A DNA stretch of 64,000 nucleotides from NCBI GenBank assembly GCA_029339195.1, contig JAPTJF010000172.1:52169-116168 (forward strand). Direction: 5' to 3'. How positions within the stretch are numbered: the first letter of the stretch is position 1; each line of letters opens with the position of its first letter. The notes beneath the pieces are model-generated. The model ran no database searches. It saw only the letters and a program-made list of their open reading frames with translations, and was not told where the DNA came from. This DNA is from Micractinium sp. NFX-FRZ. Its lineage: Eukaryota > Chlorophyta > Trebouxiophyceae > Chlorellales > Chlorellaceae. Positions 32,608 through 47,466 of the stretch are shown here, in pieces. Position numbers and translations under genes: made by a program.

Positions 32608-35600
32608 TCATTCGTCGTAGCTGCCACTGCTGCCGCTAGCCGCTTCTGCCAGGTCCTCATCTAAATCAAAGTCCTCCTCCTCCTCCTCTTCACCTTCCGA
32701 CCCCTCCTCTTCGCCTTCCGAGGCCTCCGCATCATCATCGCTGCTGCTGCCTGCCAATGCCGCCACGATCTTGTCAACAGCGTCCTCATCCTCCTCCTCG
32801 CTGCTGCCGCCGCTGCCGCTGCCGCCCTCCTCATCCGAGCTGGCACCCGCCGCCTCCAGCTCAGCATCAAAGTCGGCCTTTCCAGCCGGCCCCGCCTCGC
32901 CGTCGGAACCCTCCAAGTCGCTGCAGTGAGGCAGCAAGGTGGGCGGGCCGAGGCGGGTCATGTTGCGGCCGCGGTCAAGTTGCGGCCGTACCAGCGCAGG
33001 GCTTGCATTGGCAGGCTGGCAGTACCGCTCCGCAAGGGAAGGGCGACCACACCCGTGCAGCAGGAGTGGCAACTCCACCCCACCCACGATATAAGCCGCT
33101 CTCCCTGTTCGGGCCGCCAACCCACCTCGGCCACCAGCCCACCCTTAGCCTCACCTGACGTCCTCAAAGTAGGAGGGCTTCAACCCCAGGCTGAGCTTGC
33201 CGCCGGCAGCGTCCACCTTCAGCACGCGCGCCAGCACGCCTGCAGGGGGGGGGGCCAGACGGGGAAGAGGGGATGAGCTGCAGCCCGGCAAGCACGGATG
33301 GGTGCAGGGGGGTGCAGGCAGGCGCTCTCACGCTTTCTTTCTTGTGTGTATTGCCTCAGGACAGCGGGGATGTTTGTCAGCACAGGACCAAGTCCTCTGT
33401 CCTGTTGAGTTTGAATAGTTGTGTCGTCATCACCGGCAACGACAAGAGTGCATGCATGTCGGCAGCACCCAGTGCAGATGCAGGCAGCGCGAGGCAGGAG
33501 GTAGGTGGGGGGGGTGGAACAGGGCAGGTCAAGTGCGTGGTGTGTGCAGGCGGCGGGCGGGGGACCGGGCATCAGATAGAGCTAATGGGTCAACAGGGGG
33601 CACCGGCCTTGTGGTGCCGTCTGACAGGGATAACTAGAAAGTCAATCATCCTGTGCCGGTCCCTCCGCAGGAGCATGAGTTGCAGCAGGCAGGCAGGAGA
33701 GGGGCCGCCGTGAAATGCGAAGCATCCCAGGCTGGCAGGCAGGCAGCCCACATGCAACCTGCCTCCTCAAGTTAGCTAAAGCCTTCCCCCCCAACAATTG
33801 AGCCGCCCCCACCCATCCCAAAGGCAAGGCACTCACGCTGGCCGGGAGTGAAGAGGGAGGCCAGGTCCTTCACAAAGTCGTCGGCAACCTCGCTCACGTG
33901 CGCCAGCCCTGCACAGCAATCGCAAACACAGGCCGTCAGCCAAACATACCACTGTGTTCAACAAGCTGTTGCTCTCAGCCTCCTCGCTGTGCACGGTGCC
34001 AGGCCTGCAGGGCGGAAAGCGGGCTGCAGGCTGCAAGTGTGGTGCGCAGCGTGTGGCCCCCCACCTGTCGCCCCCTGCGTCGCCTCCCCCTCCAGCTCCA
34101 CAAACACGCCATACTGGGTGAGCCGCTTCACATGCCCACGCACCACCTGCACCAGTGGGCGGGAGGGGCAGGACATGGGCGGTCAGTGCGCTGCTGCTTA
34201 TGGTTGGCAAACCTACGGGCAGGCGCGGTGCAGTGTTGTTAGGGGGAACAGCAACACGGCGCCTCCATGCAAGGCCACCCCACCACCCCCCCGTGCCCGC
34301 CCCGCCCCACCTGCCCCTCTTCAAGCGACTCCAGGCTGGGGGCCACCTTGCGGCTGCGCAGCGTCAGGTCGACCCTGCGGGAGGGAGGCGACAGGGAGAG
34401 GGCAAGGGGGAGCAGGTTGGCGGACCGCACGCAGAGCATGCGGGGCCAAAAGGGCAGGGCAGGGGGAGGCGACAGATGGCGGCAAGGCAGCAAGGCGCAC
34501 AGGGGCGCGGCCGGTGGCTGAGCAGCAGCGGCAGGCGGTAGGGGCCAGGACATTAAGGACTCCTCCCATCAAACTCGTCCAGACCTGCCCTGACCTGTCC
34601 CCTTCCCCAGCCGCCCACCCACCCACCCACCTGTCCCCCTCCACCTTGAGCACCTGCCCCGCCACCAGGCGGCCCTCGGGGAACGCTTCCGCCGGCTTCT
34701 CAACAAACCCGTCGGCCAGCTGGTTCAGCCTGCGAGGCGGGGAGGGGGAGCAGTGGCATGTGGGAGAGTGCTTTGAAGAGCATGCACGCAGGGTGAGGCT
34801 GGGAGGGCTGGGGTGGGAGGCTAGTTTTGGCACACGGTTCAGTGCCTCTCATGGTCCGTTGTGTATGGTGCCTGCCCCCGCTCTGCTCCCCGCACACGTG
34901 CCACCCACCCACCCACCCACCCACCTGATGCGTGCGTCAAGGTTGCGCGCCAAGCAGACAAACACGCCTTGCTGGCCCGCCGACTTGACGTAGCCAGACA
35001 CCTGGAAAGGCAAGGCAGGGCAGGCGAGGTAGGGAGGCAGGTCGGACAAGCAAGAGAGGAAGGAGGGTAGCAGGGCCAGCAGCGGCCTCTCACCAGTGCA
35101 GGAAAGGGCAGCCTGGGCACGATGGCATGCATGCGCCGGAGGTGCGGTGATGAACAACGAATGAGGATGCCAGCCCAGCAGCGCCACCTCACCTTCTGCC
35201 CCGGCTTGAGCTCCCCAGGCTGCAGCGGGCCATCCGCCACGTCCGCCGCGCCCTCTTGCTGCTGCTGCTGTGCCGCTGCCGCGTGCGCCGCACACTGCGC
35301 CCCCGCCGAGGGCCGCAGCGACAGCAGCAGCTGCGCGCCGCCGTCGCTGCTGCCGCCCTTGCCCTTGCCCTTGCCGCCCTTGCTGCTGCCGCTGCTGGCG
35401 GGGTCGGGACCCAGCACTGCTGCCTGGCAGAACTGACCCTCCTGGAGCCCCTCTAGCGCCTGCTGCACAGGCGCGTCGTGAATGTCGGTGAGCGCGACAC
35501 GCCCCGCGCTGCGCGCGCTGAGCTGCACCCGCACCCCTGCGCCGCCCACCGAAGTGATGCAGCCCAGCAGCAGGGCGCCGGGCGCGGGCGCCGCCGCCGC

Positions 35601-38600
35601 CGCCGCTGCTGCTGCCTCGGCCGCTGCCGGCGTGGCGTGGGGCAGCAGGGAGACGTCGAGCGAGCGGCGCTTGGTGTCGACGTGGAGCACCGTGGCCTGC
35701 AGGCAATACAGCAGCACATGGGCAGTATGTGAGAGGCACTGCAATGGCACATGAGCTGTGCACTCGAATCTGGTGAGGCAGCATCCGTCAGAGTTGCATG
35801 CATGGAGCGGCTCAGCACAATGAGGGCAGCACCTCACCTGCACTGCCTGCCCGGGCTGGAAGCGCTGCTTGAGCTGCTCGCACTCCTCAATGCTGCTGGA
35901 CGCCTGCAGGCAGGCAGGCAGGCAGGGACAGAAGATGACCATTGATGGGATGCTCAGGCCGCAGGCGTGGCCGCGAGGAAGGCTTGTGCCAGGGTTAAAC
36001 CAGGAGGCGGGAGGTGTGACGTATGAATCGGCACGGAGCGTGGCAATCCTGGGCAGTCACGCAGCTCAGCTGGCGCCGCACCTGTGTGGCGTAGGCGCGG
36101 CCGCGGATGGCGGGGGAGAAGGCGCACCACACGTAGCCCTTGGCCACTCCAGTCACAAAGCTGCGGGCAGGGGAGACGGGACGTTTGCATGCCGCTCAGC
36201 ATACAGGCAGCCGGCAGCAAGCTGCGGGCTGGGTTAGGAGGACAAGAGCGGCCACCTGGCCGTGCACAGCAGACAGCACAAGGCAGGCAGGCCCGTCACA
36301 GAAGCGGAAGAATGCAATAGCACAGAGTGTGTGTTTGCCTCACCCTGGCAGCTGCTGCCCCGGCTTGAGGGCCGCCCAGCTGGTGACCCGCTGTGCCTGC
36401 TGCACCTGCTGCGCCTGCTGCGCCTGCGCCGCGGCCAGCACCTCTGCCCGGCTGCTGCACTCGAGCTGCGCGTGCCGCCGCCCCTCTGGCGTCTGCACCC
36501 GCCCCAGCACCGCCACCATCAGCTTGTCGCCAGTTTTTAGCTTTGCCAAGGAGGAGGCCTTGCCAGCTGGCGCCGCCTCTGTGATGTGCAGCCGCCCGTG
36601 GCAGCCGCCCTCCAAGACGAGCTCAGCGTGCAGAGCGTGCACCGTGCCCACTGTAGCTTCTACGCAGCTGCCCGTCGCGGGCGCGACTGCCTGCTGCTGC
36701 CCCTGCCCCTGCTGCTGCTGCGCCGCCTTGCCGCCCGCCGCCGGCACGGCAGCCGCCCGCCCGCCCGCCGCGCGCAGCGGCTTGGCGGTGAGGGGTGTGT
36801 AGAGCAGCAGGCGGCCGGTGGTGGCAGCCGTGGGCAGCGCTGCCACCGTGGCGGTGAGGGTGTCCCCTGCCGCAAACTGGCGGGTCACCCCCTGGTGCTG
36901 CAGGTTGTAGTCGGTTGTGGGAAGGAAGCCCAGGATGGGCTGCTGCTGCCGTCCCGCCAGCGACACCACGCAGTACCCCTGCTGCGGCTTGGCCTGCAGG
37001 AGGCGGGGCGGGGGAACAAGGGGCAAGTGTATGGGTGGAGGACGACAGAGGAAGTGCAGCAGGCAGGAGAGGGTACGGAGAAAGTGTGCACGGCTGGGCA
37101 GGCAACACAATTGCCAGCGGCCAACAGGGCACAGGCGGGTGTTGTCACATGTTAGGAACAGCTGCCACTGGGTGCACACTAGCACTGCGCCTGTAGGCAG
37201 GCTGGCTGGCTGGCATGTGTGCCTCGTGTTTTGCCCAGATCCACTCGCCAGCAGAACAGGCGACGCTGTTGAGCTGCAAGCCATACGCATCCTGGCACGC
37301 CGAGCACCAAGGCCCCGTGAACACCCCACCAACCTCAGCTCACCAGCTCAATGGTCACCTCCACCTGCTGCCCCTCCTGCACCTGCTGCCCCGCCGCTGC
37401 TGCCGGCCCCTCAGCTGCTGCTGCCGCCCCCTTCTTCTGCTTCTTCTTCTTCGGCTGCTGCTGCTCCTGGGCTGCCGCTGCCGCTGCCGCCGCCGCCTGC
37501 TGCAGGCGGGGCAGGAGGGAGAGGTCCAGCACTCCCTCCCGCTTGACCACATCCAACACGACTGCCTGCACGCTGGTGCCGGGCTCAAAGGCAGCGCCGC
37601 TGGGCACCTGCAGGCAACAGAGAGCAGGGCGTGGAAGGTGGGATGCAGGTCAGTGAGCAGGCAGCGCGGCATGTCTTGATTGACGGATTGCAGCAGCATA
37701 AGGGGGCGTCAGACTAACGAGATTCCTTGTGTTTTGATCGTCAGTGAGAGTCAGATGGTACGGACAGTACAAAAGTCATCACCAGCCCCCCATGTGGGTG
37801 CACGCAGGCAGGCAGCCAGCCAGCTGGCCAGCACAGATGCAGGTAGTTGCAGCAGAACAACACCTTGCAAGGACGGGACTGGCAGCATTGCACAATGCAT
37901 GCACAAAGTGGCAGCAGCAGCAGCAGCCGCCTGTGAGGCTGCGCGGGGCGTCAGACTAACGAGATTCCTTGTGTTTGATCGTCAGTAAGAGTCAGATGGT
38001 ACGGACAGTACAGAAGTCATCACCAGCCCCGGCTGTGAGCGGGCAGCCAGCTGCAAGCTGGCCAGCTCACGTCTAAGCAATACAGGCAGAGGGCAAACGG
38101 CCCTGCAGGCCAGACTATAGGGCAGCAAACAGCACAGCAGCAAGGCCCATGCACGCATGCAAGCAGCGGCAGAACTAGAAGTGGTGTGGTAGATGTGCGT
38201 GGGCATGGGGCCTCAGACTAACGAGATTCCTTGTGCTTTGATCGTCAGTAAGAGTCAGATGGTACGGACAACACTGGAGTCATCACCAGCCCCCCATATG
38301 GGTGTGTTTCAGCACGTGAATAGCCAGCATGAATACTATCGGCCGGCTGAGCCGGCCGAACAGCCAGCCGGCCCATGCGCAGGCAATTGCAGCACTGATG
38401 CAGCGTTTGTTGAGGGCTACATTGGGTTAACACCGCCGGCAACGCACGTTTCCTTTGCAGCAACATCGGCAGGGGTGCAAGTGTGCAGCGCAAGCGCAGC
38501 AGACGGGGCATCAGACTAACGAGATTCCTTGTGTTTGATCGTCAGTAAGAGTCAGATGGTACGGACAGTACAGAAGTCATCACCAGCCCCGAATTTCATA

Positions 38601-41600
38601 GCATACGGCCGGCCAGAAAGCATGATGTGTGCATGAGTTGCAGCAGCAGTGCAGGCAATTTGACGTGCTAGCAAAACGGAATGCCGGAAGCACGCTTGCA
38701 GTTGCAGCAGCATTGGCAGGTGTGCAAGTGTGCAGCGCAAGCGCAGCATACGGGGCGTCAGACTAACGAGATTCCTTGTGCTTTGATCGTCAGTAAGAGT
38801 CAGATGGTACGGACAACACTGGAGTCATCACCAGCCCCCCATGTGGGTGCAGGCGGCCAGGCAGCACACCATGCAGAGTGCCAGCACAAGCAGCATGGGG
38901 GAGGGCCTAGCAATGCAGCGCGGCGCAGCACAGCACAGTGCGTGCAGTGACATCCGCGGGTGCCCTGGGTTTGGCAGCGCTTCCATTGTTGACCCACCAC
39001 CCTCCCTGGCATCTCTCCACCCCCTCCTTCCCCACAACGTGCCACGGCTGCCGCCATCTCTGCGTGTATTGCAACTCAGCAACCCCCCTCTCCCCACCTA
39101 CCTGCTGTGTCGGCACCAGGCCCACCACGTCTGCATGCGCCTGCAGGTCGCAGAGCAGCCCAAACTCCTTGCACTCGTGGACCTCGCCCGGCACTGGGGG
39201 AGGGGGAGGGGAGGGGAGTACGGAGTTCCAGCTGTCAGTGCATGCATCTCTTTAGCAACAGTCCTTACTCTCGCGCACCTTGGCCAGCAGTGCGGGACTG
39301 TGAGCTGAAAGGGAAGCCATCCATGTGGCTGAGGGCAAGTGGAGTGGGTGGCACGAATACAGCCCTGCCAGGCAAGTGAAGCAGCACGCAGAGGAGCAGA
39401 GGGCGGTGCCAGGCAGGCAAACAATGGCGGACGGGCGGGCGGGCGGGCGCACCGATGCTGCCTACGGTCAGCGTGCTCCAGTCGACATCTGGGGACTCGC
39501 CGCTGCCCAGGGCATTGGCGGCCTCCAGATCGCTGCAGGGAGGGAGGAGCGTGGGGAGGGGGGTGAGGCGGGGGGGCGGGAGCTGGTGTGAGGGCCAGAA
39601 GAGATTGGGGAGAGGGGCATGCATGCAGTGTTGCTGCTCCGTCAGCAGACATTGCGCCGGGGCGAAGCAAGCGTGCCTTGCCAGCCACAAGCGCATTGCT
39701 GCCGGGCCCTGGGCACCTGAAGAGGGACTGCAGGAGCGCGGCGTCGCGGCTGCCGCACAGCGACTGCTTGAGGGCCACACTGAACCGCTCGCGCTCGCGC
39801 TCCACCTGCGCATGGGGAGGTTGGGACAGGCAGGGGAGCGGTGTGTGCCCTGCGGAGGGGATGCAATTGGGAGGCCCACACACCGGGGTGGCACCAGCCC
39901 AGCAGACGGGGCAGCGCAAGCCAGCGCCTGCTGCGGTCACAGCACCAGCTGCTGCCGCAGCTATCAGACACGGCCCGGGGGCCCACTGGCTTGCCTGCAC
40001 CACGGTGGCCCGCACGGACTGCCCCTCCCGGAAGAAGAGGTGCGGGTCCGACACAAACGTGTCGCTCAGCTGCGCCAGCCCGGCACGCCCGGTGAGGCCG
40101 CCCATGAAGCTGCAGGGAAGGGGAGATGGGAGAGGCAGGGTGGGGGTTGAGCACAGCAGGCACGGCACAGCAGGCACAAGCCGAAGAGGGCCCTGGGTGC
40201 CGAGCGCATGCAGCATCTCGTCTGTGATGACAACCAGCAGTCGACAAGCGGAGCAGCCAGCAGGTTTTGCCTTTGAAGGCAGCACAACGTCGCTCACCGC
40301 ACAAACACGGCGTCGCGGGTGACGGATGCCACATAGCCCGCCAGCACCGCCCCCTCCGCCACCCCCTCCAGGCTGGCCGGCAGCATGCCCGCGGAGGCGG
40401 CACCCAGCAGGGAGGCCTTGCGGGTCAGGCGCAGCTGCTTGGCGCCCTGCAGCAGTGCGGGTGGTGGATGCGAGGCGGGGTGTCAGGCGGAGTGGCAGGC
40501 GCGATGTTTGGTAGCAGGCACAAAAAGCAAGGTGGGTGAGGTGCGGAGGGCTGTGGCGTGGTGTCGTGGGGGTGGCAAGGGCTGCACGCTGAGTGGAGCG
40601 CCGAGCGCGAGTGGGGTCCCCCAGCCTTGCCTCTTGCCATCTGCAGCACCACCCTCCCCCCGTTGCCGTCCCGCCTCCCCTCCCAGCACGCCACCCGCCC
40701 TCCCAGCCCAGCTCACCTCCAGCCTCTGCAGCACCAGCAGCGAGCCCAGCTGGGCGCCCGGCTGCAGCGCCTCCACCAGCGCCGCCACCGCTGCCGGGTG
40801 GTCCGCCAGGTGGGCCACCTCCAGGCGCCCGGCGGCAGGCGCCGCCCCAGCCGCTGCGCCGCCCTCTGGCGTCACCGCAACCTCGAAGTAGGCGGGCACC
40901 GACTCCCCGTCCACCTGCGCCAAAACAGTAAAGGGGTACAAAGGGGAAGGTGAGGGGCAGGCAAGGTAGCAGGTGGTCAGGGGTTGTGCCAGTTGTCAGG
41001 TGCGGGAGGCGCAGCAAGGCTGGCCCCGCTTTAAGTGCAAGCTGTGTTGGGTGAAGCCCTAGGGCAGGCCAACGCTGCATTCCTGCTCAGCTTCTTAGCT
41101 ATTTTCTCTACCCTCCCTCTCATACCCCCGCTTTCCTGTCCTCACATCAACCATCCCCGCCCCCTGCCCCCCTCCCTCACCTCCTTGCTGTGCAGCGCCA
41201 CCACGCTGCCCCTGACGACATCGCCGGGCTGGAAGTCTCCCAGCGCCGCCGCCACCGCCGCTGCATCGGCCTCGCCAGCCGGCGCCTTGCCAGCCGGCTT
41301 GGCCTCCGCTGCCACGTCAGCACCAGCCGGTGCCACGTCAGCACCAGCCGCTGCCTTCTTCTTGGTCACCAGGGAGAGCTTGAGCCCCTTGCGCCCGGGG
41401 TCAGCACCCAGCACGCGGCACTTGACCACTGCAGGCGCAGCAGGGGGCAGGCGGTGGGTGAGTGCGGCGACACCGGGCACGAGTGGCACGGCGGACAGGG
41501 GGCTTCAGCCAATGCCGCACGGGCTTGGCTGGGAAGGCGCTGCAAGCCTGCCCTCACCCCCAGGCCAAGCAGGCAGGCAGGCGGGCAGGCAGGCAGGCGG

Positions 41601-44600
41601 GCGGGCGGGCGAGCAGGCAGGTCCATGTGGCTCCAGCTCACCTTGACCGGGCTGGAACGCGTCCCCCGGCTTCTGCCCCGCAGACAGCCCGCACTCGGAA
41701 ATGTGCGCCAGGCCTGCAGCACAGCACAGCACAGCACAGCAGGAGGGCAGGGTGAGGAAGGGGGCGCACGACAGTGCGGCCCGCCCCCATTGACCAGGCA
41801 TGCAGGGGCACACATATGGGCAACACTGCGGCTGCTCGCCCCCACCCATCCCGTCCCAGATCACCCATCGCAGCCGGCCCCACCCACCCGTCACGCCGCC
41901 GAAGAACTGCACAAACACGCCAAAGTCGGTGGCGCCAGTCACCACGCCGTGGCTGCGCCCGCCAAGCACCGCGTCCTGCGGGAGGGAGGCAGGGTGGGTG
42001 GGTGGGGGGACGAGGTGAGCGGGGGGGGCAGGGGAGTAAAAGCGGGGGAGGATGTGGGGAGGACCCAGACCAGCGGCCCCCGGCTGGCTGGCTGGTGCTA
42101 GCAATGGCAGGGGCGCACCAGCACACAGAGCCGGGAAGTCTTCCAACAGCAAGCCCGCCCAGGGCCCACGCCTGTCCCCCACAACACAGGCCTGTGCACG
42201 CCCCCGCACACTGCACCGCGCGCACTGCTCACAGCAGCGCCTCACTGCCCGCCGCACCTGGGTGGACGTGATGGGGGGGAACTTGCTGCCCACCACTGAG
42301 GGCTTCAGCGTCACCGTCACCTTCTTGCTGCCTGCCAGGGGGGCAGCGCCAAGCAAGGGGTGGGGGCGTGTCAGGGGGCGAGCGCGTGTGGGGTGTGTAT
42401 GTGCGTGCACAAGAGGCTGAGGCGGCAAGCAGCAGAGGCCTGGTTTTAACACTTGCAAGCAGAGCGCAAGCTGGTAGCACACCAGGCTCCCTCTGCCAGC
42501 CCATGCTGCGCCTGCTCAGGCAAGAGGGTTGCTCCATCTCGAACTTGCTGGCTCCTCTCCGCACCTCTCCACAGAACCCACACAGTGCACCCTCCTTTCA
42601 ATCCATCACAGCCTCACCCCCCATGGTGCACCCCCCCTCCAAACCAACACCAGCCTCACCGGCGTCCAGAGTCATGATCTTGCCCGCCACCCTCTGCCCC
42701 TCCTTGAACTTCTTGAGCCCCTTGCGGCTGCCCAGGTCAGAGGCATGCAGCACCGGCACCAGCGCCCTGAAGAGGGGGCAGAAGGCAGGCAGGCCGGGTG
42801 AGGAGGCAGTGGGGATGGCGAGGGGGAACTCGCCGCTCAGGCTGAGGCTGAGCAACGCAAAAACAGGCCAAAATTCAGCACATCTGCACGCCTCCCGGCA
42901 CGCCTCCCAGCATGCACAGCACACAGCACACATGTGTCGCTGCGTGCTACCCCCTCCCCAGGTGGGCCCCACCTGATGCTGGGTGTGATGCTGAGCAGCA
43001 GGCCGTACTCCTCCACGCGGGACACGGTGCCAGAGACGGGCATGCCGGGGCGCAGGTCTGTGGCGGGCAGGCAGGGGGGCAGGGGTGGGAGTGGGTGCGT
43101 GAGGGCAGCGGCAGGAGGGCAGGTCAGGGAGGAGCGGGTGGGCGACGGCGCGGCTTCAACGGTGTTGGCCCCTGTAAAGCAAGCAGGCACTATAAAGAGG
43201 CGGGGAGCAGGGGAGCAGTGCACAGATTGCAGTGTGCCAGCATGTAGGTGGGTGCAGTGGATGCGGTGAAGCAGGTGTGCCGTGAGTGCAAAAGGCAGCG
43301 ATTCATGGCCCGCCTCGGGAGGGAGGCAGGCGTGTTGCCGCCCGCTTAGTCAGGGCTGGGGTTCGGGTGTGGCACCGAGCATGGCACGCCATGCATGGCG
43401 CGGGCGTCACGGGGGCGGCGGCCCACTTCAGGCCGCCGCGGACGCTGCGCCGGGGTCGGTGCGTGAGGTGTGGGTGGTGGGGATGGATGGATGGTGGTGC
43501 AGGAGTGGGAAGCGGCGGCGTGGGCGTGCAGGAGTGCTTGTGCAGGATGCAGACTGCAGCACTGCGGATACTACTCCCGCTCTGCCATGTGGCAGAGTGT
43601 GGCACACATCTGGCCTGCAGCCAAACGGTATACCCCCCGGCTGCTGGCAACGTGCTAGCAGACGTATCGCCCGTTGACCACCACACCGTGTGCCGCAGCA
43701 CCTCCCCACCTGCCATGCTGAGGATGCTTTGGTCCACCACTGAGGGCTTGAGGGACAGCACGGCCAGGCCGTCCATGGGGCGGAAGCCCAGCACGCGGGC
43801 GCGCAGGCGCTGGCCGGGACGGAAGCGCTGCAGGGCGGGGAGGGAGGGCGGGCAGGCAGGCAGGGAGCAGTGGGCAGGAGCATGGCTGCAGGGAGGGGGA
43901 GGACCTGCAGGAGCACTGCAGAAGCTTCCATGCTGGCTGGCGGCACGGGCCGCTACATGCCCGCCTGCCTGTCCGGCTGCTAGCTGGCACCCGCAGCCGC
44001 CCCGAATGCAACCCGTGGGAGAGGAGCGGTCACCAACCTTGGACATCTCCTCCACCTTGTCCTCTGACAGGTTGCTGATGTGGGCGTAGCCAGGGGTGAG
44101 CGGGGCGCCCCCTGCCGCCTCGGCGGGGGGCAGCTCGCACAGCAGGCCCAGCCCCTCGTCCACCCGCCGCACAATGGCGCCGTCAAACACCTGGCGCGGC
44201 AGGGTTAGAGTGGAGGGGGAAGGGGAGCGGACGGGAGGGCAGGGTGTGTGAGGGGTGTGCGAAGGTTTAGAGTGGCGAAGAATGAACAACCAAACAACGG
44301 CGGGGCAGGGCAAGGCGGCTATTTGCGCAAATGATCAGGACCCGACATCCGCCAGAGCAGAAGGCACACGCCAGCGGAGCAGGGCAGGTCAAACAGAGCG
44401 CCCAGGGCGGCACTGCCAACGTGGGGCCCGCCGCCTCACCTGCCCCAGCGCTGGGAAGTTGGGCGGCAGCCCGGCGGTCAGCAGGTGGCGCTGCAGCGTG
44501 AGGCCGACGCGCTTGGTGGCGGGGTCCACCCACAGGATGCGGGCACGCAGGCGCTGGTTGGGGCTGCAGGGGCGGGGCGGGCAGGGCAGGCAGGCGGGTG

Positions 44601-47466
44601 GGTGGGGTGGAAATAGGGCACAGTGAGCAAGGCTGGAACCGCGCCACAAGTGATGAGTGCAGAGCTCCAGTGGGGTGCATGCCTTGGACTGGCGACATGC
44701 ACGCACCTCACCCGCGCGTTCTCTCTCCCACGCATTGCGCTCGAGGCCGCACCTATCCGCTCACCCCGTCCTCCCATCCTTGCTTCCTTGCCTCACCTGA
44801 ACTGCTTGCTCCAGTCGGCCGCCAGGTCAGCTCCCAGGTGGAAAGGGTCCACGGTGCCGCTGCACAGCCAGGGCAGGAAGGGAGCACAAAGGGCGGGGAA
44901 GGGCGGGACGGTTGGTTTGGTGTGGTGTGGCGGGCAGGCTGGTGGAAAGGCGCCAGCAGGGCCAACCAGGCGGCAGGCAGTGTGTGGCAGCTTGAGGCCA
45001 GCTGGTCATTACCACAGCCGCCCTGCCGTTCTCCGCTGTTCTGTCTTTTAACTCGGCCCCACCTGAAGTAAGTGAGGAAGGAGCAGATGAGGCCGTCTGA
45101 CAGCACGTTGCGCACGCGCGCCGTCACCAGCTGGCCGGGCAGCAGGGAGCCTGCGGGGCAGTGGGTGTGTCTTTTCGTCACAAGGTAGCAGCAGTGCGTC
45201 GCTTTGGCTGACGTGCATTAGGGCAGCATGCGTACACACTTCGGCAGCCGAGCACCCCACTCCTGTTACGGCTCGGACCCTGGCTGTGGCCTGCTCCTCC
45301 TGATCACGGAGCAGCTGCTCTGCCCGCCTGCTCATACTTGACTGCTGCAATTTATCAGGCTGCCGCCCACCTCTTTCCCATACATCACCTCCCAGACAAG
45401 CAAGATCCCCCTCCACTTGTGTCCCCTCCCCCGCCGCTCACCAATGTTGAGCCCCTCCCACTCGCGCGCCACCGCGCCCGTCACCGCCTCGTGCCCGCAC
45501 AGCACAGACACGCTCGTGGCGCCTGCACCCGCGGGCTTCACCCCGCCAGGGGCCACCACCACTTCAAGAAGGCTGCCGGGAGACGGGGCCAGCCGCGCAG
45601 CCGCGGCCTCCTTCTTGGGCAGGAAGCCGCTGGCGCCCTGCAAACCAATTAAAAATTAAACTTAAAATGAATTAAAAAATTGTGCAATTGTGAAAGACAG
45701 CACACGGGCAACACACAGGTGAGGCGTGATGGCCAGCACATGCAAACGCTCCCAACCCCGCCGCATCGTCCTTCGCATCCTCTTTACGGACACCCCCGCA
45801 AACTACCTTTCCCCACACCGCCGCTGGCCCACCCCCACACCTTGATGCCCAGCGCCAGCAGGTAGCCATGGTCCTCCACGCTGCGCACACACGCCGGCAG
45901 CGCCAGCCCCTCCCGCAGGGCCTCCAGGCCTGCATGGCAACACGGGGCACGGGAAAAGCTCAGCGGAGGCTGGCGGGCTGGACAGGTGCAGAGGGCAGAG
46001 GACAGCAGGTGGTCGCAAGCAGGCGAGCGTGCCAGGCGAGCCTATGATAGGGACGGCACCTGCTTTCCCAAGGCAAAAATAGCACACAGCAGGTGCACCC
46101 ATCCATGGCAGGCTGAGCGCACATAGCAGCGGCGGGCCTCACCCAGCCCGGAGTTGAGCTTGGACAGGCGCAGGGAGACGTCCACCCGCTTCTTGCCCTT
46201 CTTCCCCGCTGCCTCCTTGCCGCCCTTCTTCTTGCCAGCTGCCGGCGCGGCGCCGCCCTCCTCGCCCGCCCCGCGCAGCGCCGTCACCGTGCACCGCACC
46301 AGCTGTCCGATGCCAAACAGATCTGTCAGCGGGGGCAGCGTCATGGCGCCGGCGCCGCCCGCGGCCTTGCGCTTCTTGCCAGCGCTCTTGACAGCAGCGC
46401 CCTCCTCCTCGCCGGCCGCCGCAGCCGCCGCTTTTTCTGCCTTCTCCGCCTTCCTGCTCTGCTCCGCCAGCCAGTCTGATGCCTCTGTGTAAGACACGTG
46501 GCCCCGCAGGCCGTGTGGCAGGCTGACCACCAGCTCGTGAGGCATCACCTCGATCACAGCTCCCCACAGCTTGGTGCCGGGGCTCAGGCTCTGCGGCAGG
46601 GGGCAGCGCAGAGGCGGCGGGGCTGGGCACGGCCGTGGGCTGGGTAGGCAGCGACAGGTGTGCGGCATGGCAGCCGTGGAGCGCTGGTGCCCGCTCGAGG
46701 GATGCCATGCCACCCATCCCTCCTCGCCCGCCCCTGGCCGCTGCTCCCCCAACGCCTTCATCAGCAGTGGCACCGAACCAAGCAGCAGTTACGAGTAGAA
46801 ACACACTCGTTCAGCAACGCCGAGCCTGACAGCGCTCTACAAGTGTCAACAAAGTATACAACACCATACACTTAAAATTTGACCCACCTTGAACTTGAGC
46901 AGCTCCACATACTTGGGCAGCCGCCCCTGCGAGCTCAGGCTGGCAAAGAAGGCGTCCTCCTCGTCGCCCGGCTCCCCCGCCGCTCCCGCCCCCTTCCGCC
47001 GCTTGCCACCCTTCTTGCCGGCCGCGGCGGCGGCATCCAGGTCTGCCGCTGCCTCTGCATACGCCTCCTGTGAAGTGGGCAAGGGCAAGAAAAGGATGTG
47101 GCCATGCTCAGCTTCATGGGCACAAGGAAGGCTGTGCAGGACGACGGCCAGAGGAGCAGGCGGCAGGCAGGAGTGGCGGCAGGCAGCAGGCGCGGCTGCC
47201 TTGCGCTGCTGGGGGCGCCTCTGCATGCATGCTGGGGGCGCTTCGAGCAGTGCACCGATGTAGGGGCGTGCGACAGAGCAGCAAGGCAGCCCAGAGGCAC
47301 GGGCTGGGGTGGAGTTTGCGGCATGCATGGCCCAGCAGGGTCTGAGCTTGCTCCTCCTGCTCACCTGCTCTAGCCTTTTCTTCTCAATAGGGGCTAGCCC
47401 CGAGCCGCCGCCGCGCACAAAGGCCTCCTCCTCCTCCACACCAGAGCTGGCGCGCTTTTGCCCCAT
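32608..47466 (-). CDS. RRP5: rRNA biogenesis protein RRP5 (multi-S1-domain, PDCD11 family)
   Basis: Nucleolar factor for early 18S and LSU rRNA processing. Thirty-four exons: 47466-47365, 47067-46888, 46590-46143, 45929-45841, 45637-45442, 45150-45063, 44859-44797, 44563-44440, 44190-44038, 43827-43710, 43057-42973, 42766-42660, 42331-42258, 41975-41888, 41713-41642, 41428-41181, 40914-40717, 40446-40298, 40109-39995, 39805-39717, 39532-39453, 39193-39102, 37607-37344, 36993-36344, 36160-36082, 35903-35838, 35696-35193, 35001-34925, 34729-34631, 34374-34311, 34146-34065, 33908-33837, 33239-33155, 32920-32608; 1770 residues. A basic N-terminus (MGQKRASSGVEEEEAFVRGG) is followed by many S1 RNA-binding repeats, for example SLSPGTKLWGAVIEVMPHEL and, last, GHVKRLTQYGVFVELEG with LAHVSEVADDF (about 1588-1667). 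The C-terminus is an Asp/Glu/Ser tail (about 1668-1770). The HAT/TPR repeats that normally end RRP5 are absent. Intron 19 has a GC donor (CAG|GCAAGC at 39994). Two introns carry snoRNA genes. Confidence 0.92.
33351..33439 (-). ncRNA. Box C/D snoRNA, dual guide to adjacent LSU sites
   Basis: An 89-nt candidate in the RRP5 intron 33240-33836, on the host strand. Read 5' to 3' on the minus strand: stem TTGCC, box C GTGATGA (33433-33427), box D' CAGA (33399-33396), box C' GTGCTGA (33383-33377), box D CTGA (33359-33356), stem GGCAA, which pairs perfectly with the 5' arm. The D guide complements CAGCGGGGA (33362-33370) and the D' guide complements CCTGTTGAG (33401-33409). Both are, from memory, segments of one stretch of eukaryotic LSU rRNA near the peptide-exit region, 18 nt apart. 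The box+5 rule predicts 2'-O-methylation of the G in UCAGCGG and of the G in CCUGUUGAG. Each match is only 9 nt, so targets are provisional; the box and stem layout is clear. Confidence 0.75.
33561..33663 (-). ncRNA. Box C/D snoRNA, dual guide to LSU peptidyl-transferase region and SSU
   Basis: A 103-nt candidate in the same RRP5 intron. Terminal arms GGGACCGGCA and TGCCCGGTCCC form a strong stem with one bulge. Boxes on the minus strand: C ATGATTG (33649-33643, imperfect), D' CAGA (33623-33620), C' TGTTGA (33595-33590), D CTGA (33575-33572). Directly next to D' lie 12 nt complementary to ACAGGGATAACT (33624-33635), the conserved peptidyl-transferase-ring sequence of LSU rRNA. Next to D lie 10 nt complementary to TAGAGCTAAT (33577-33586), a conserved 5' segment of SSU rRNA. 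Box+5 predicts methylation of the middle G of GGGAUAAC and of the A in UAGAGC. As I recall these equal yeast 25S Gm2815 (guide snR38) and human 18S Am159 (SNORD45). Two conserved-site hits in one element make chance unlikely despite the weak C box. Confidence 0.83.
37703..37789 (-). ncRNA. Box C/D snoRNA, array copy 1
   Basis: Minus-strand order: stem GGGGC, box C GTGATGA (37782-37776), D' CTGA, C' CTGACGA, D CTGA (37712-37709), stem GCCCC. The D guide complements TAACGAGATTCC (37715-37726), 12 nt that match a conserved LSU rRNA segment as I remember it; box+5 predicts methylation of the second A in UAAC. The D' guide reads GTCCGTACCAT and I recognise no target. Subtype with TGTACTGTCC before D'. 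Confidence 0.87.
37945..38030 (-). ncRNA. Box C/D snoRNA, array copy 2
   Basis: Same boxes, guides and GGGGC/GCCCC terminal stem as copy 1; 86 nt. One T fewer between C' and the D guide. Same subtype as copies 1 and 4. Confidence 0.87.
38207..38293 (-). ncRNA. Box C/D snoRNA, array copy 3
   Basis: All four boxes, the D guide and the terminal stem are intact. The segment between box C and the D' guide differs (CTCCAGTGTTG in place of CTTCTGTACTG), as in copy 5. The 11 nt next to D' are unchanged, so guide function should be the same. Confidence 0.87.
38505..38590 (-). ncRNA. Box C/D snoRNA, array copy 4
   Basis: Identical in boxes and guides to copy 2; 86 nt, terminal stem GGGGC/GCCCC kept. 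Confidence 0.87.
38752..38838 (-). ncRNA. Box C/D snoRNA, array copy 5
   Basis: Same subtype as copy 3 (CTCCAGTGTTG). Closest to the intron's 5' splice site at 39101, so it is transcribed first. All boxes and the terminal stem are intact. Confidence 0.87.
45646..45697 (-). other. AT-rich 3' end of an RRP5 intron
   Basis: About 50 bp of A/T-rich sequence (TTAATTTTTAATTGG on the minus strand) just before the acceptor at 45638, in a window that is otherwise very GC-rich. Most likely an unusually T-rich polypyrimidine tract. Confidence 0.6.

Follow-up and report, generated by a model that had tools for sequence, protein, structure and literature searches.

What are the five similar units that stand one behind another in an intron of a predicted RRP5 gene of the green alga Micractinium sp. 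NFX-FRZ, and why are there five of them? They lie in a 64-kb stretch of contig JAPTJF010000172.1 (the window, meaning the whole of the DNA analysed, in whose positions all coordinates are given unless stated otherwise), and both the array and its host gene are read on the minus strand. A preliminary description of this DNA had taken the units for five tandem copies of one box C/D small nucleolar RNA (snoRNA), and on this point we agree. We consider it very probable that each copy is a canonical double-guide box C/D snoRNA gene, aimed at A2322 and U2114 of 25S ribosomal RNA (rRNA; Arabidopsis numbering), that its RNA is processed from the spliced intron, and that the copies were duplicated locally, with the guides under purifying selection. 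Expression, processing, methylation and the mode of duplication we infer from the sequence; nothing in the array departs from the box C/D mechanism.

All five copies are located within one predicted RRP5 intron. Each is 87–88 nt long (86–87 had been given before), the distance from start to start is 241–297 nt, and the spacers measure 154–210 nt. Copy 5 is the first in transcription order (38752–38839; C box 38825–38831, D′ guide and box 38800–38815, D guide and box 38758–38775) and is followed by copy 4 (38505–38591; C box 38577–38583, D′ guide and box 38552–38567, D guide and box 38511–38528), copy 3 (38207–38294; C box 38280–38286, D′ guide and box 38255–38270, D guide and box 38213–38230) and copy 2 (37945–38031; C box 38017–38023, D′ guide and box 37992–38007, D guide and box 37951–37968). 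Copy 1 is the last (37703–37790; C box 37776–37782, D′ guide and box 37751–37766, D guide and box 37709–37726), its 3′ end 95 nt from the next exon. On the host strand, the unit reads GGGGC, the C box GTGATGA, a linker, the D′ guide UGUCCGUACCAU, the D′ box CUGA and a short linker; the C′ box TGACGA (one mismatch to TGATGA), a further linker, the D guide GGAAUCUCGUUAGU, the D box CUGA and GCCCC follow. All five copies carry the C box (RUGAUGA) close to the 5′ end and the D box close to the 3′ end, and the order C–D′–C′–D and the GGGGC/GCCCC stem, both described earlier, were found in every one. A sixth copy lies elsewhere in the genome. The internal D′ CTGA and C′ TGACGA are invariant in all six, and the 5-bp terminal stem keeps its pairing in all 30 cells, with one G–C to A–U double change in copy 6. 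Two types of linker occur, type A in copies 1, 2 and 4 and type B in copies 3, 5 and 6.

The letters of the large subunit (LSU) rRNA were taken from other eukaryotes. The D′ target stretch comes from an earthworm transcriptome contig (PMC5327576), and the D target letters come from a sea-urchin 28S primer (PMC9202947) and, as a second source, a human 28S primer (PMC6856654). The D′ guide forms 11 bp with UGGUACGGACA(A), extended to 12 in the type B copies, and the D guide forms 14 bp with the sea-urchin letters AUUAACGAGAUUCC when one G:U pair is included, or 12 contiguous Watson–Crick pairs; neither run is broken by a mismatch. The preliminary description had reported 12 nt of the D guide as complementary to the LSU segment UAACGAGAUUCC, which stands for the contiguous Watson–Crick pairs; it had overlooked the second guide, that of D′. 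Each guide offers at least 10 nt upstream of its box that are complementary to these letters, with a nucleotide at N+5 that is mapped as methylated in Arabidopsis. The stretches used for placing the sites are short pieces of conserved LSU rRNA (36 and 23 nt), and in each a single placement fits the letters mapped in Arabidopsis, U2114/G2125/A2127 and A2322/A2327/C2338, on the premise that letters and spacing are the same there as in Arabidopsis. The N+5 rule gives A2322 as the predicted target of the D guide and U2114 as that of the D′ guide. An Arabidopsis RiboMeth-seq table lists both among the mapped methylation sites and assigns U2114 to SnoR117 and A2322 to U30, two separate snoRNAs (PMC8053127). 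A human site list holds A3804, A3809 and C3820 with the letters and spacing of A2322, A2327 and C2338 (PMC10657414), and A3804 is by these tokens the human equivalent of A2322. It is also the nucleotide for which methylation had been forecast, the second A of UAAC. The prediction is thus of a double-guide snoRNA with two tasks, at U2114 and at A2322. Two early assignments were dropped: the D guide had been taken to be of the U15/snR13 type, until the letters of A2322, A2327 and C2338 identified the U30 target, and the D′ target had been guessed to be C2198 (snoR118), until a check of the letters placed it at U2114.

A strict box C/D scan ([AG]TGATGA, CTGA and at least five Watson–Crick stem pairs) gave six matches on the minus strand of the window, the five array copies and 33356–33433, and none on the plus strand. 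It gave no match in 60 simulations of the minus strand as first-order Markov copies and none in a simulated control of 1.6 Mb. Twenty 10-kb pieces of the alga's assembly, of which 19 were arbitrary and one was chosen for its snoRNA paralogues, held none either; this 200-kb sample is uninformative on the frequency of such arrays. Nothing was matched in the stretch holding the sixth copy (L007), whose C box is off the strict pattern, and the snoRNA paralogues in another stretch (L034) went unreported. The scan is specific, yet blind to degenerate members. In Rfam, snoR117 (RF01423) matches all five copies, with expectation values (E) of 2.9e-6 to 1.2e-4 when a 2-kb stretch is searched and of 9.3e-5 to 0.0037 over the whole window. 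At gathering scores, Rfam has no match anywhere in the window, and the 11 matches that the 2-kb stretch yields with E up to 1 do not include U30/SNORD30. Four weaker ones among these, to snoR26 or snoZ163, fall on the copies, and two weak matches to a long noncoding RNA (lncRNA) and a small RNA, HOTTIP_3 and isrG, lie outside; we ascribe them all to chance or to a general resemblance among C/D RNAs.

When the entire assembly (66.07 Mb, 838 contigs) was searched at the DNA level, six places emerged, the five array copies and a locus 86% identical to the query on another contig, C181:96472–96557. The words made of each guide with its box, with one mismatch allowed, occur at the same six places only and always without mismatch; the counts are lower bounds, and a reversed control of the D word gave no match. 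The C box of the sixth copy is CTGATGA, with C in place of R. This copy sits between nitrite/sulfite-reductase-like exons, whose translation, joined by eye, matches NIR_SIR (E 4.4e-5) and NIR_SIR_ferr (E 0.0032), both under the cut-offs. A scan for the C box together with the D′ guide gave 5 bacterial loci in a collection of genome contigs, taken as chance, and none in a collection of viral contigs.

Several observations weigh against the double-guide assignment. We take the earthworm contig to be LSU rRNA; its authors did not label it as rRNA. With the LSU letters used, N+1 of the D′ guide is unpaired, and the D duplex shortens from 14 to 11 bp against the letters of the human 28S primer, where N+3 is mismatched. 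The alga's own 25S rRNA did not turn up in the 66-Mb assembly: three patterns of conserved 25S sequence, two searched exactly and one with two mismatches allowed, gave 0 matches. The rDNA may be absent from the assembly, interrupted or different in the words searched. An rRNA pattern had no match in the viral contigs either. The snoR117 scores of the five copies (32.8–38.6 bits) and of copy 6 (35.5 bits) are under the gathering score of 42, and the reversed control of the D′ word gave 2 matches. The sole compensatory change in the stem was equalled in 79 of 500 shuffles and is therefore weak. Single copies fold only mildly better than shuffled sequences, at z −0.68 to −2.17. For five of the six, the C′ region ACUGACGA is paired in the predicted fold to the D guide, in its 3′ half UCGUUAGU, so that the C′ region resembles the rRNA target.

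The variation between copies is unevenly distributed. Among the six, 1 of 47 box and guide columns is variable as against 9 of 29 other internal columns (Fisher P 0.0005), and among the five array copies the figures are 0 of 47 and 7 of 29 (P 0.0007); the test leaves out 12 stem columns (4 variable), and its units are columns, not independent events. The cores are 84–99% identical, and most flanks are at random identity, in keeping with the diverged spacers noted earlier. For the 60-nt upstream flanks, 5 of 15 pairs exceed the shuffle maximum of 0.59 (copies 1 and 5 at 0.74, four pairs at 0.60–0.62), and downstream 2 of 15 do so (copies 4 and 5 at 0.85, copies 1 and 5 at 0.62); the control consists of 200 shuffles built from the upstream flanks of copies 1 and 2 only. 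Local matches extend beyond the cores for 50 nt (92%) after copies 4 and 5 and for 26 nt (88%) before copies 1 and 5, so some duplications carried flanking spacer along. The linker type does not track flank similarity, which suggests exchange between copies. Copies 2 and 4 have identical linkers and random-looking flanks, which points to conversion limited to the core, to strong constraint on the linker or to a copying event that took in the core only. We read the array as the outcome of old local duplication with selection on the core, on which conversion has probably acted as well.

The host gene was delineated by our own dynamic-programming gene model, which predicts a coding sequence at 32608–47466 (minus strand) with 35 accepted exons and 1809 amino acids; the model put out 36 exons, of which one of 27 nt was rejected. 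The predicted protein matches S1_RRP5 (7.1e-82), OB_RRP5_4th (5.9e-49) and OB_RRP5 (2.9e-28) in Pfam. The array is located in intron 23 (37608–39101, 1494 nt, GT..AG), between exon 23 on its 5′ side (39102–39193) and the exon at 37344–37607 on its 3′ side. This intron interrupts an S1-like domain, and the two flanking exons, when joined, give matches below the curated cut-offs to S1 (E 0.0015) and to S1_RRP5 (E 0.0021). The remaining predicted introns are 75–652 nt long, with the 27-nt exon merged into the array intron. On this gene model, the array is an intronic snoRNA gene cluster with five sense-orientation copies in one predicted RRP5 intron. The rejected exon (38024–38050) would have its donor site in the C box of copy 2; it is in frame, but it would put nine extra residues inside the S1-like domain, which when joined matches without them (the comparison was made only without the exon). 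If the exon were real, the array would be divided 3+2 over two introns.

A second RRP5 intron of the model, also read on the minus strand (33240–33836, 597 nt), bears two different snoRNA-like genes. One is a snoR38-like C/D RNA with the guide AGUUAUCCCUGUC (33565–33660; RF00213 at 33.0 bits, gathering score 45, E 0.0021 on 701 bases). The other (33350–33440; RF00360 at 29.6 bits, gathering score 50, E 0.00042 on 701 bases and 0.038 in the search of the whole window) is the RNA that the strict scan matched at 33356–33433. The predicted RRP5 protein ends in an acidic tail, and no HAT or TPR domain was matched in it by Pfam up to E 0.001, which presumably sets it apart from the RRP5 of yeast and plants.

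Intronic snoRNAs mature by splicing, debranching and trimming of the intron, during which core proteins protect the RNA. This route is described in PMC11028025, and the processing of polycistronic snoRNA precursors to units in PMC7671301. Applied to the array, the RRP5 pre-mRNA would be transcribed and spliced, and the 1494-nt intron would be debranched and cut between the copies; as there are five units in one intron, the inner three would need an endonucleolytic cut. The core proteins of the snoRNA–protein particle (snoRNP) would shield each 87–88 nt unit, and the mature particle would direct fibrillarin to A2322 by its D guide, the function of U30, and to U2114 by its D′ guide, the function of snoR117. 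The array would have been born by local duplication, after which purifying selection would hold the boxes and guides while the spacers drift, the cores being probably homogenised by conversion or unequal exchange.

Why there are five copies is a separate matter. The preliminary description had seen in their number a sign of dosage selection and of co-regulation with RRP5: the copies would have been multiplied and kept to meet the demand for the guides, and RRP5 would have been preferred as host because guide and assembly factor would then increase in step. Five copies do not show this, with a sixth in an unrelated gene and duplication being common, and we regard dosage selection and co-regulation as possible but doubtful. 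The absence of any variable box or guide column among the window copies is in their favour, as are the lack of another source of either guide word within one mismatch in the assembly, the two further snoRNA-like genes in RRP5 and the report that in O. tauri 33% of snoRNAs are hosted in ribosome-biogenesis genes (PMC7671301). The sixth copy, which has one change in the C box, lies beside nitrite/sulfite-reductase-like exons, which weakens the idea of co-regulation with RRP5; in O. tauri, moreover, snoRNA abundance is reported to track stability, not host expression (PMC7671301). The snoRNA families of plants and Chlamydomonas are described in the same source as extensively duplicated, which makes the number of copies, by itself, a weak argument for selection on it. 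A more elaborate proposal is that one snoRNA joins the U2114 and A2322 jobs, is the sole source of both guides in the genome and was amplified in the RRP5 intron by dosage selection, with conversion confined to the cores, or copying by way of RNA, preserving their likeness as the spacers become random; taken as a whole, we judge it unlikely.

The processing of the intron could also take another course. If exonucleases reached the ends of the intron only, the main stable product would be a longer multi-unit RNA capped by snoRNPs at both ends, similar to a sno-lncRNA. Two snoRNAs in one intron can yield such hybrids (PMC11028025), a polycistronic cluster of O. tauri accumulates larger forms with several snoRNAs (PMC7671301), and the array intron offers five units with spacers of 154–210 nt. 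The spacers, however, are mostly unconserved between copies, and plants are reported to cut polycistronic snoRNA precursors into single units (PMC7671301); we hold a product of this type to be distinctly improbable. That the array is a non-functional tandem repeat, a satellite or a decayed sequence with snoRNA-like motifs by chance, is scarcely credible, for although the copies are repeated and intronic and their single-strand folding is near that of shuffled controls, variation spares the boxes and guides, the cores keep their identity between mostly random flanks, each guide fits conserved LSU rRNA at a site where methylation has been mapped and a further copy stands on another contig; the earlier judgement that this is no generic satellite was sound.

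We therefore return to the duplicated double-guide snoRNA and compare it with known systems. Clusters of snoRNA genes in introns, families of duplicated snoRNAs and tandem arrays of C/D RNAs are already known, and the RRP5 array joins a known class. The preliminary description had pointed to intronic clusters in plants and green algae, and the literature agrees (PMC7671301, PMC2656528), the latter source describing plant snoRNA clusters within one intron. As in the intronic clusters of Chlamydomonas reinhardtii and rice, several snoRNA genes share one intron of a protein gene; the host gene differs, and probably the organism does too. Chen et al. in 2008 are said to have traced homologous copies in those clusters to local tandem duplication. 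The mammalian SNORD115/116 loci likewise hold tandem copies of one C/D snoRNA, for which conversion and subfamilies have been proposed, but they encode orphan guides in very large arrays (PMC11028025), whereas the RRP5 array has five copies in one intron and guides directed at rRNA. The array as a whole offers a natural case for asking whether the number of snoRNA copies per intron sets the level of rRNA methylation, and how five units leave one lariat. In SNORD115/116, each repeated intron reportedly carries a single copy.

For the single unit, a close counterpart is snoR117 (RF01423). The array RNA is like it in the C box, in the length class and in the D′ guide with its box, UGUCCGUACCAU-CUGA, which equals the Rfam consensus; it differs in scoring under the gathering threshold and in carrying a D guide for A2322, which is absent from that consensus. 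With U30/SNORD30 it shares the target nucleotide A2322, judged by guide complementarity, although in the array the guide precedes the D box of an RNA that resembles snoR117. In human SNORD30, which we take to be the RNA linked to A3804, the corresponding guide presumably stands before D′. No description of a U2114 and A2322 guide pair on one RNA was met in a limited search of the literature. In the array, two methylation-guide functions that are split over two snoRNAs in Arabidopsis would be united on one RNA.

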